Shown here piece after piece: positions 4,601 through 9,601 of a stretch of DNA of 53,139 bases. How positions within the stretch are numbered: position 1 is the stretch's first letter; every line of letters begins with the position of its first letter. The position numbers were made by a program, and so were the translations under genes. The stretch comes from an uncultured bacterium (GTDB lineage Bacteria > Verrucomicrobiota > Kiritimatiellia > RFP12 > UBA1067): assembly GCA_902761275.1 (NCBI GenBank), contig CACWJS010000052.1, positions 1 through 53,139 on the forward strand, in the 5' to 3' direction. A model generated the notes under the pieces. The model was not told the DNA's origin and did no database searches. It worked only from the letters and a program-made list of their open reading frames with translations.

Positions 4601-4609
4601 AGTATATCA
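4601..4609 (-). promoter_or_regulatory. Weak -10-like box (TGATATACT)
   Basis: TGATATACT on the minus strand, 55 nt before the ATPase start. The identical 9-mer occurs inside the two MITE-like elements (5639-5647 and 7959-7967). It is a variant of the extended -10 box seen elsewhere in the window. Confidence 0.4.
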
Positions 4610-4719
4610 AAAACAACACTGAAAGGGAAGTGCCACCAGTCTACGTTCGCCTATTTGCAGTTCACTTCGCGCTGAATGTTGGCTATTTGGTGATGTTCTG
4701 TGCTGGTTTGCCTTCCAGT

Positions 4720-4751
4720 GTGCGGCTTTGTTTCGGGCAACCGTGCTCGCC
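4720..4751. repeat. 32-bp dispersed repeat, inverted copy at 8554-8585
   Basis: These 32 bases occur without mismatch and in reverse orientation at 8554-8585. A partial third copy is the left arm of the long palindrome at 8423-8587. This copy lies in the decayed tail of the RAYT gene. Confidence 0.8.
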
Positions 4752-4801
4752 CTTTGAGGCGGGCGCCTTGCCCGTCCTTCGACCCGCTCGCCCTCGCGTT
4801 G

Positions 4802-4825
4802 GCGTCCATGGTACCCCATGGACGC
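4802..4825. repeat. Perfect hairpin, 10-bp arms and 4-nt loop
   Basis: GCGTCCATGG and CCATGGACGC arms flank TACC. It lies where RAYT protein homology ends, so it may mark a REP-type insertion into the gene. Confidence 0.75.
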
Positions 4826-5142
4826 TCGTTCCTCCGTCTTCAGCCGGTTCCAGGTCGCGACGACCTGCGCAAGCGACGCGTCCCGGTAGAGCGCGCGGAT
4901 GCGGCGCATGACCTCCGCCTCGTCGATTTCCTCCGCCTTGGGCACGTAGACGAAGATGTGGAAGTGGTTCGACATGAAGGCGTACGCTAGGACGACGACT
5001 CCGCTGAACTCCTCGACTCGGCGCATCAGCGCAACGCGCGGTCTTTCTCCCCGTCGTCGAGGAAGAACGCCCGGTGCGCAAGCCGGCTGACAAGGTGATA
5101 GCACCTGTCCTGCCCTATGAACCTGTTTTTCCTCATGCAGGC

Positions 5143-5160: not shown

Positions 5161-5199
5161 CTACTGTATCAATTTTACTGTATCAATAAGCTCTGACCC
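5161..5199. repeat. Solo, diverged copy of the MITE right end
   Basis: Resembles the right terminal inverted repeat of the MITE-like element at 5658-5696, with the two ACTGTGGTAA-like units changed to ACTGTATCAA and a closing CTCTGACCCT. It lies directly upstream of the RAYT promoter, linking the MITE ends with the RAYT gene. Confidence 0.6.
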
Positions 5200-5228
5200 T
5201 TCATTCTCTTTTGGATCAAGAACGCATT

Positions 5229-5459: not shown

Positions 5460-5704
5460 GGAGCCAACAGGGTCAGACCTGATTGCCACAGTAAATTGCC
5501 ACAGTAGGTTTTCCTTGTCATAGCGGCGCGACCCTTTCGATTCGCCGCTTGCCCCCTTCAAACGCGCGGTGTGCCACTCGGCCGATCAGACGCTGGCACC
5601 GATCTGGAAGATTTATCATGCAACGTCTCATGCCGAACAGTATATCACAAACTCCCGCTACTGTGGTAATTTACTGTGGTAACCATGTCTGACCCTATAG
5701 CCCC
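5460..5704. mobile_element. MITE-like element, copy A (245 bp, 39-bp terminal inverted repeats)
   Basis: Non-coding element with terminal inverted repeats at 5469-5507 and 5658-5696 that match at 35 of 39 positions. Each end begins with AGGGTCAGAC and contains two tandem CCACAGTA units. A second copy lies at 7802-8014. The element holds a TGATATACT box at 5639-5647 in a context similar to the RAYT promoter (compare 5143-5199), which suggests derivation from a RAYT-carrying element by internal loss. RAYT proteins are known to mobilise REP palindromes; mobility here is inferred from the two copies and the inverted ends. No target duplication could be defined. Confidence 0.75.
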
Positions 5705-7801: not shown

Positions 7802-8014
7802 GGAGCCAACAGGGTCAGACCTGATTGCCACAGTAAATTGCCACAGTAGGTTTTCCTTGTCATAGCGGCGCGACCCTTTCGATTCGCAGCTTGCCCCCTT
7901 CCTGATCAAGCGCTGGCACCGATCTGGAAGATTTATCCTGCAACGTCTCATGCCGAACAGTATATCACAAACTCCCGCTACTGTGGTAATTTACTGTGGT
8001 AACCCTGTAGCCCC
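7802..8014. mobile_element. MITE-like element, copy B (213 bp)
   Basis: Direct repeat of 5460-5704. It shares the left boundary GGAGCCAACAGGGTCAGAC and right boundary AGCCCC, with two internal deletions of about 22 and 10 bp. Left inverted repeat at 7811-7849; right one truncated at 7978-8004. Like copy A it carries TGATATACT (7959-7967) on the minus strand and lies just upstream of a minus-strand gene. Confidence 0.75.
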
Positions 8015-8027
8015 TTGGAACAGCATT

Positions 8028-8036
8028 ATTATACCA
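8028..8036 (-). promoter_or_regulatory. Extended -10 box (TGGTATAAT)
   Basis: Perfect box just outside MITE copy B, reading left through the MITE towards the lipoprotein gene (start 7756). No nearer start codon with gene-like features follows it. Confidence 0.5.
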
Positions 8037-8205
8037 AAAACCGCTCAGGACAGAGTGGTGAATTTTGAACGCCGCCAAGATGGCGACGCTCCCAGTTAGT
8101 GAACTGCGTAAACGCGGCGATTTTGCCGCAGACAAGGTTAAGCGAGCCGATGGAACATTGGCGAGCGCAGATGCTACGAAGAAAAACGCGCCATAGCGAA
8201 AGGTC

Positions 8206-8403
8206 GGGCTAACGGCGTATGTGTGAGGAGCAAGCGCAGGGGAACGGCGCGACGACAGTTCGCGTGATGCGCCATCGGACGCAAGCGAGACGAGGAGGCG
8301 GTATTCCGCCGACGAAGTATCGCGCTGCGGACGATGGATGCAGCGCGCGGAAGGAGTCGCGCTTTTCCCCGAAGGGAGCGACGAACACATGCGCCGTTAG
8401 CCC
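8206..8403. repeat. Inverted repeat, 19-bp arms 160 bp apart
   Basis: 8206-8224 and 8385-8403 are inverted copies with one mismatch in 19. The enclosed sequence contains several shorter perfect hairpins. Confidence 0.7.
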
Positions 8404-8422
8404 AGCTCCCGAGAGTGCCATG

Positions 8423-8587
8423 CGCGGCTTTGTTTCGGGCCGAAGCCGGGCGGAACCTTCGAGAGCGAGACGATTACGGCAGGACTCGCCCCCGACGGCG
8501 TATATGTATACGCCGAGTGGGGCGAAGGACGCCGGAATCGGCCGCTCTCGCAAGGCGAGCACGGTTGCCCGAAACAAAGCCGCACGA
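8423..8587. repeat. Long imperfect palindrome, about 80-bp arms
   Basis: The centre is CGGCGTATA-TG-TATACGCCG (8496-8515). Outward from it the arms still pair as CGCCCC/GGGGCG (8487-8492, 8519-8524), a CGAGAGCG block, and finally GCGGCTTTGTTTCGGGC near 8425 against its complement at 8568-8585. The outer right arm (8554-8585) is identical, inverted, to 4720-4751. Confidence 0.75.
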
Positions 8588-8621
8588 TGTCAGGCAGACC
8601 CGCACAAAGCACAACTGCGGA

Positions 8622-9173
8622 CTACTCGCCAAGACGCCAGACGCAGATGCGCGTGCGACCGTAGGAGCGGTCGCGAATAAGCTCCCAGCGCGGCGCATCT
8701 GCCGCAGACTGCACCGCCGTCATCTCGGCGGCGAAAAGCCCACCTGGTCGGACTACTCCGCGAGAGACAAGAGTCTCGAGGACAGACGCATACCCCTTCT
8801 CCTCGCCGAGCGCATACGGCGGGTCGGCATACACGACGGAAAAGCCGGGGCCGGAGTAGGCGGCGATCCAACGATAAACGTCGGCAAGGACACAATTGGC
8901 GGTCGTGACACGCAAGGTGGAAAGGTTTTCCTTCAAGACTGCCATGTGGCGACGGTCTTGCTCGACGAATGTCGCGGACTTAGCGCCACGAGAGAGCGCC
9001 TCTATGCCAACCGCGCCAGAGCCCGCAAAGAGATCGAGAAAATCGGCCCCCGGAACTTCGCACTGGATGATATTGAAAAGCGCCTGCCTCACGCGGTCCT
9101 GCGTCGGGCGAACGGCGTCCGTTTTCGGAACCTTCAAAATCCGCCCGCAGAACTCGCCGCCAGTTACCCTCAT
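8622..9173 (-). CDS. rsmD: 16S rRNA (guanine966-N2)-methyltransferase RsmD
   Basis: SAM-dependent methyltransferase that modifies G966 of 16S rRNA. The 183-aa protein begins MRVTGGEFCGRILKVP, has VRPTQDRVRQALFNII (family block), the SAM motif DLFAGSGAVGIEALSRGA and the catalytic DPPY motif. The ATG at 9173 overlaps the queD stop as ATGA, which fixes the start and indicates translational coupling. It is the last gene of ybgC-queD-rsmD. The final 17 coding bases recur at 3142-3158. Confidence 0.94.
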   Translation of the reverse strand: MRVTGGEFCGRILKVPKTDAVRPTQDRVRQALFNIIQCEVPGADFLDLFAGSGAVGIEALSRGAKSATFVEQDRRHMAVLKENLSTLRVTTANCVLADVYRWIAAYSGPGFSVVYADPPYALGEEKGYASVLETLVSRGVVRPGGLFAAEMTAVQSAADAPRWELIRDRSYGRTRICVWRLGE

Positions 9174-9601
9174 GCCTGCCTGCACTCCGCGCAGCTGTCG
9201 GCAGTCTCCCAAACCTTCACGGCGTAAAGCCCGGGAATCCGCGACTTGAGCTCGCCGAAGAAAAGCTTCGCAAGGTTCTCGGCAGTGGAGCGGAAAGGAA
9301 TCGCCGCCGTGCGCATGCCGTACCGCTCGACGACGGCGGCAATCTCGCGCTCGCCCTCGCTCTCGGTGTTGTAGATGAACGCGTGGTCGAAGCGATCGCA
9401 GACGACTTCAGAGGCAATCTTCTTGAGGTCCTTGAAGTCGATCACCATGTCCTTAGTGTCGTCTGCGGACTGCGCGACCGTGACGTCAACGCGATAGGTG
9501 TGGCCGTGCAGGTTCTTGCAAAGCCCCTCGTGGTTCGTAAGCACGTGCGCGGCGTCAAACTTTATCGTCTTCGTCGCTGTTGTCATGACGGCGTCTTTCA
9601 T
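9170..9601 (-). CDS. queD: 6-carboxytetrahydropterin synthase-like protein (QueD/PTPS family)
   Basis: T-fold enzyme of 143 aa. QueD converts 7,8-dihydroneopterin triphosphate to 6-carboxytetrahydropterin in queuosine/preQ1 synthesis; related PTPS enzymes act in other pterin pathways. Zinc-binding histidines are visible in FDAAH and LHGHTY, the catalytic cysteine in C-x3-HGH (CKNLHGH), the DRFDHAF block, and the terminal VWET glutamate that holds the pterin. CAEC near the C-terminus is not a standard feature. The ATG at 9601 lies 2 bp after the ybgC stop; a second ATG five codons on is possible. queA elsewhere in the window supports a queuosine pathway in this organism. Confidence 0.88.
   Translation of the reverse strand: MKDAVMTTATKTIKFDAAHVLTNHEGLCKNLHGHTYRVDVTVAQSADDTKDMVIDFKDLKKIASEVVCDRFDHAFIYNTESEGEREIAAVVERYGMRTAAIPFRSTAENLAKLFFGELKSRIPGLYAVKVWETADSCAECRQA

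Follow-up and report, generated by a model that had tools for sequence, protein, structure and literature searches.

Small interspersed repeats of bacterial genomes are typically under 200 bp (PMC3049150). The BOX repeats of Streptococcus pneumoniae, whose expression has been shown, are dispersed, modular, and intergenic, with a predicted fold if transcribed; they are enriched between convergent genes, their repeat families are nested, and no clean empty site was found for them (PMC3049150). The bcr1-bcr18 repeats of the Bacillus cereus group are dispersed, restricted to that group, and have traits of mobile elements (PMC3446304); bcr10 and bcr18, whose structure is conserved, are among those predicted to act as functional RNAs, and about half of the bcr copies are found in transcripts (PMC3446304 and references there). 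REPs, palindromes of 20-40 bp (PMC3733652), and REPINs are intergenic and go with RAYT genes (PMC2817692, PMC3116915). Group II introns (Rfam RF00029) are large mobile structured RNAs, and OLE, ROOL, GOLLD, and HEARO are large, elaborate non-coding RNAs, some of them rumen-derived (PMC12286853; Rfam).

The subject of this study is a ~470-base repeat, previously uncatalogued, that is scattered through one genus of ruminant gut bacteria; a search of open-licence papers found no description of it. By analogy, BOX and bcr, as dispersed structured repeats, are the systems closest to it in kind. Like BOX, it is dispersed, modular, and intergenic, has a predicted fold if transcribed, lies more often between convergent than divergent genes, has other repeats nested with it, and gave no clean empty site; it is likened to bcr by description and not by sequence relation, and the host phylum is different. 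It differs from both in size, in having a pair of long arms of irregular build, and in the variation of its stems, which are exchanged wholesale between copies with compensation. The bcr repeats are smaller than its copies. BOX is expressed, as this element would be on the reading favoured below.

The analysed window is a stretch of 53,139 nucleotides from an uncultured bacterium of the Kiritimatiellia. The initial annotation had pointed to a block without genes, dominated by inverted structure, between rsmD and a sequence box, and this placement is correct: position 8028 has the box ATTATACCA (TGGTATAAT when read leftwards), and the minus-strand gene rsmD, a match to Pfam Cons_hypoth95, occupies 8622-9212. 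The block (8041-8621) is composite. It comprises a short separate repeat at ~8071-8102, found without the element at two other loci (L019 and L021), a small hairpin at 8113-8131, and then a full-length, non-coding copy of the dispersed element, with a type 1 left arm, on the plus strand from ~8137 (GTTAAGC) to ~8606. These boundaries, drawn from own-genome matches, copy alignments, and the 3' alignment of 91 copies, are approximate and were set by aligning full-length copies.

The element starts with a predicted hairpin at 8146-8162 (GCCGATGGAACATTGGC), kept in type 1 and type 2 copies, which is followed by a linker at 8163-8196 that contains GCTACGAAGAAAAACGC and is conserved in the copy alignment. 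The left arm (8202-8408), identified by repeat search, folding, and copy alignment, consists of an outer 19-bp stem and an inner hairpin with GGCGGTATTCCGCC. The stem corresponds to the inverted pair annotated at 8206-8224/8385-8403, in which 18 of the 19 pairs are Watson-Crick and one is T-G, a wobble pair if the strand is RNA. The right arm (8422-8583, 162 nt) has five stacked helices, and its GGA internal loops and one G-U pair are invariant; this is the region used for the covariance model R1. It had been described as a palindrome of about 165 bp. The long hairpin is real, with an outer perfect 17-bp stem (8424-8440/8567-8583) and inner arms at 8471-8504/8507-8540 recovered by the repeat search, but it is irregular and not a perfect palindrome (BLAST self-complementarity of 72% over 8424-8583). 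The variable 3' tail (8584-8613; ACGATGTCAGGCAGACCCGCACAAAGCAC) is rich in GGCA/AGCA in other copies, as judged from the 3' ends of 91 copies. The annotated 32-bp perfect inverted copy is exact (4720-4751 against 8554-8585). It is part of a second-copy fragment on the minus strand (4699-4790), which holds the last ~90 nt of the element and is joined to a truncated RAYT-like open reading frame (ORF) at 4607-5104, also on the minus strand (Y1_Tnp below the cut-off, E 0.071).

We also noted a second dispersed repeat, at 7802-8010 and 5460-5688, which has 25-nt inverted ends (TTGCCACAGTAAATTGCCACAGTAG) and matches the genome at 15 places. A related end, at 5161-5200, adjoins the truncated RAYT-like ORF, so this repeat may be linked to RAYT.

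The block has 30 DNA matches in its own genome, from full-length copies down to short pieces. DNA searches found the element in 16 of 58 genomes (own genome counted), all of one genus, and R1, built from 28 right arms, found it in 24 of these 58 (1-16 copies each among the matches listed). Multiple intergenic copies within one lineage are thus present, as in other dispersed structured intergenic repeats. When 288 sampled genomes of the phylum were searched, the R1 matches beyond the genus were weak and numbered one in each of two genera belonging to the same family; the same layout is seen in two other genera. The exact core pattern occurs in 89 stretches of genome contigs. Among the matches listed, the titles are mainly Kiritimatiellae, Verrucomicrobia, Lentisphaerae, or rumen metagenome-assembled genomes (MAGs), and the named matches are mostly Kiritimatiellae MAGs from the ruminant gut. 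One is labelled Coriobacteriaceae and may be mis-binned. Two copies lie on L176, a contig of a viral collection; a phage origin was rejected, as this single contig shares genes of chromosomal type with L043. Many MAG contigs (G010:C29, G010:C115, and G007:C217 among them) end inside or near the right arm, presumably where the repeat breaks the assembly, and the element may help account for intergenic regions that are rearranged and fragmenting in assemblies of ruminant Kiritimatiellae.

Searches of Rfam with the window and the copies, at gathering and at permissive thresholds, gave no match to the element. OLE, ROOL, GOLLD, and HEARO had no match even at E up to 5, and the element is unlike them in being multicopy and dispersed. 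One of its helices (AGCCG/CGGUU, with an invariant G-U) recalls the triad of group II domain V, and we treat this as a lead only. Membership of the group II introns was rejected: domains V/VI and D1-D4 were unmatched by Rfam in the window or the copies, and no reverse transcriptase lies beside the copies. The same search does match a genuine group II intron on L219 (contig C157 of the same genome; 300-2172), with a reverse transcriptase ORF at 401-1765 and matches to Intron_gpII and D1-D4. Reverse transcriptase as the mobiliser was also set aside, as it was undetected in 13 of the 24 carriers, including G034 and G073, each with 16 copies among the matches listed (all incomplete assemblies). 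The REP cluster that had been offered as another option is not supported: the unit is a single multi-arm element of ~470 nt, it is not beside an intact RAYT, RAYT presence tracks it only loosely, and some carriers have no detected RAYT.

The plus strand of 8131-8608 has a predicted RNA fold of -269.5 kcal/mol (z = -14.0, none of 100 shuffles as low), and the minus strand has z = -10.1 against its shuffles. As with BOX- and bcr-like repeats, the predicted fold is conserved when the copies are read as RNA. The right arm is 160-164 nt long in 28 copies from many species, each of which folds alike, and in their MAFFT alignment 32 of the 54 predicted pairs have changes on both sides, a count that does not represent independent events because arms exchange between copies. 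The share of cells that pair is 95.9%, against 78.3% after shuffling and 31.6-43.0% in six slid controls. Covariation scores 0.447 in the real alignment and 0.138 +/- 0.010 in the shuffled ones. Over a wider set of copies, the outer stem has 41 distinct variants: 14.8 of 16 positions pair between a copy's own arms and 9.5 of 16 between arms from different variants. A minority of copies have mismatched arms (9-12 of 16 paired) and seem to be damaged or to stem from partial exchange. The case for a conserved fold is weaker for the left arm, where 21 type 1 copies give an RNAalifold value of -94.9 on the plus strand against -58.8 on the minus, with 11 pairs changed on both sides (again not independent events). 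The initial annotation had included a structured non-coding RNA among its options and had made compensatory changes between copies, along with transcription, the test of it; the compensatory changes were looked for and are abundant, which supports that option at the evolutionary level. That the same elaborate fold persists despite wholly different paired strands suggests that the folded RNA matters.

The plus-strand fold of the right arm is the stabler one in 76 of 91 copies, and the minus-strand fold in 7. In the mostly Watson-Crick columns of the arm, the ratio of G-U to A-C is 83:27 with the structure derived on the plus strand, a figure biased upward and partly built in, as RNAalifold permits G-U. 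The minus-strand structure, a control that lessens the bias and does not remove it, gives 41:56. The asymmetry therefore points to the plus strand from both sides. At one pair of the right arm, 81 of 82 cores have G-U, and the GGA internal loops are invariant in the alignment. The wobble asymmetry, the invariant G-U, and the invariant internal loops favour selection on the predicted plus-strand RNA. The -10 box (TATAAT) was absent on the plus strand in the 120-nt upstream stretch sampled in 64 copies.

A protein-coding gene was rejected, in agreement with the earlier view that the block holds no convincing one. ORFs of 120-150 amino acids cross it, but there is no Pfam match over the block and the codon positions vary about equally (152/151/117 substitutions in the longest frame of the window). 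The longest open frame differs from copy to copy, and in an informal reading of other species stops break the frame at the tip hairpin.

Comparisons of shared sites give information on the dynamics of the element. At the 3' end of rsmD, a full copy is present in G000, an 80-bp 5' piece in G068, a short 3' piece in G073, and none of the element in G350 or G002; the far flank differs in each case examined. At a second site, upstream of another gene, G034 and G078 have a flanking gene 99% identical and a common left arm, but each has its own variant of the right arm. The copies of G350 and G068 there agree over a left part and diverge in the inner portion of the right arm, and G000 lacks the element. 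Arms are therefore replaced as units, probably as copies recombine with one another, and sites gain or lose copies. The compared sites defined no exact insertion point, clean target duplication, or exact empty site, so that the case for mobility rests on presence/absence and dispersal; the repeat search found no terminal inverted repeat joining the two ends of the element. Like MITEs, it is non-coding, non-autonomous, and polymorphic in presence/absence. The suggestion that the block is the imprint of a lost mobile element is supported in a modified form: the family is dispersed and varies in presence/absence where sites are shared, and the copy in the window is a full-length member and not merely a scar.

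Taken together, we consider it probable (roughly 0.6, judging from comparisons of sequences) that the block is a mobile, non-autonomous, non-coding dispersed repeat of a ruminant-gut Kiritimatiellae genus, with an RNA fold under selection. The plus strand would be transcribed by read-through or from an unrecognised promoter, and selection would see the folded RNA. New copies would arise with enzymes supplied in trans, and existing ones would exchange whole arms by gene conversion, with each stem therefore replaced together with its partner. The least certain parts are the binding partner of the RNA and whether the benefit falls to the host or to the element alone. If the RNA is made, it would be of unusual size for a multicopy structured RNA, and its stems, with dozens of naturally occurring variants that are compensated, would make it a good natural data set for separating selection on RNA folds from hairpin-driven DNA repair.

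The element could alternatively act at the level of DNA, as a miniature element whose single-stranded hairpins are recognised in trans by a RAYT or IS200-like HUH transposase, with no role for RNA. Its own genome has five RAYT-like genes, the truncated RAYT-like ORF of the window carries its 3' end, and there is a weak association between element and RAYT (detected in 20 of 24 carriers and 19 of 34 non-carriers, p = 0.046). We nevertheless regard this as unlikely. The element is absent from all five RAYT loci of its genome, RAYT is undetected in 4 of the 24 carriers (incomplete assemblies), of which G007, G026, and G059 have 14, 9, and 8 copies, and the element tracks genome size (rho 0.44) better than RAYT count (0.28). 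Moreover, a DNA hairpin would not be expected to show a wobble asymmetry that is specific to one strand, or internal loops that are invariant.

It is rather doubtful that the repeat is a cis-acting element co-opted at gene 3' ends as a terminator, RNA stabiliser, or processing site, roles that have reportedly been suggested for some bcr repeats and for BOX and ERIC. The very stable fold would suit this, and the upstream gene is co-directional in 29 of the 45 copies with both neighbours called, making a location in 3' UTRs possible; in the other 16, that gene is on the opposite strand, and no recurring gene class was found beside the copies. Where a -10 box follows (25 copies), it is 3' of the element, which is thus outside the 5' UTR of that gene. 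The element might, with a similarly low probability, be an RNA that is mobile and free-standing: a protein-less family of large structured RNAs whose fold would be needed for its own copying or insertion, and which would evolve as copies swap compensated arms whole; it would then be an RNA parasite using host enzymes. Least probable is quasi-palindrome correction with gene conversion, in which hairpin-templated repair copies one arm from the other and the fold is unselected: many of the outer stems are perfect and they differ wholesale, and copies swap arms and, being repeats, would convert easily, but such correction should erase mismatched loops, yet GGA/GGA is invariant, the G-U pair is kept, arm length is near-constant across many species, and two other genera have the same layout.

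The selected-RNA reading goes with mixed genomic surroundings. Among the 45 copies above, analysed with a simple ORF caller, neighbours are convergent in 13 and divergent in 5. The search for a partner gene by all-against-all comparison of flanking ORFs gave small clusters only (the largest with 4 loci), and an association with AGGGTC arrays was dismissed, at least two motifs being upstream in just 5 of 33 copies. Nested hairpin inserts of 50-70 nt (GGTATCCCCCG...AGGGGTGCGG, GGTAACCGCCGC...) lie within the right arm at L008, L027, and L012. Just 3' of one copy there is an AdoCbl-II riboswitch (L006:2050-2124, 39.9 bits), and the ORF that follows it resembles a TonB-dependent receptor.
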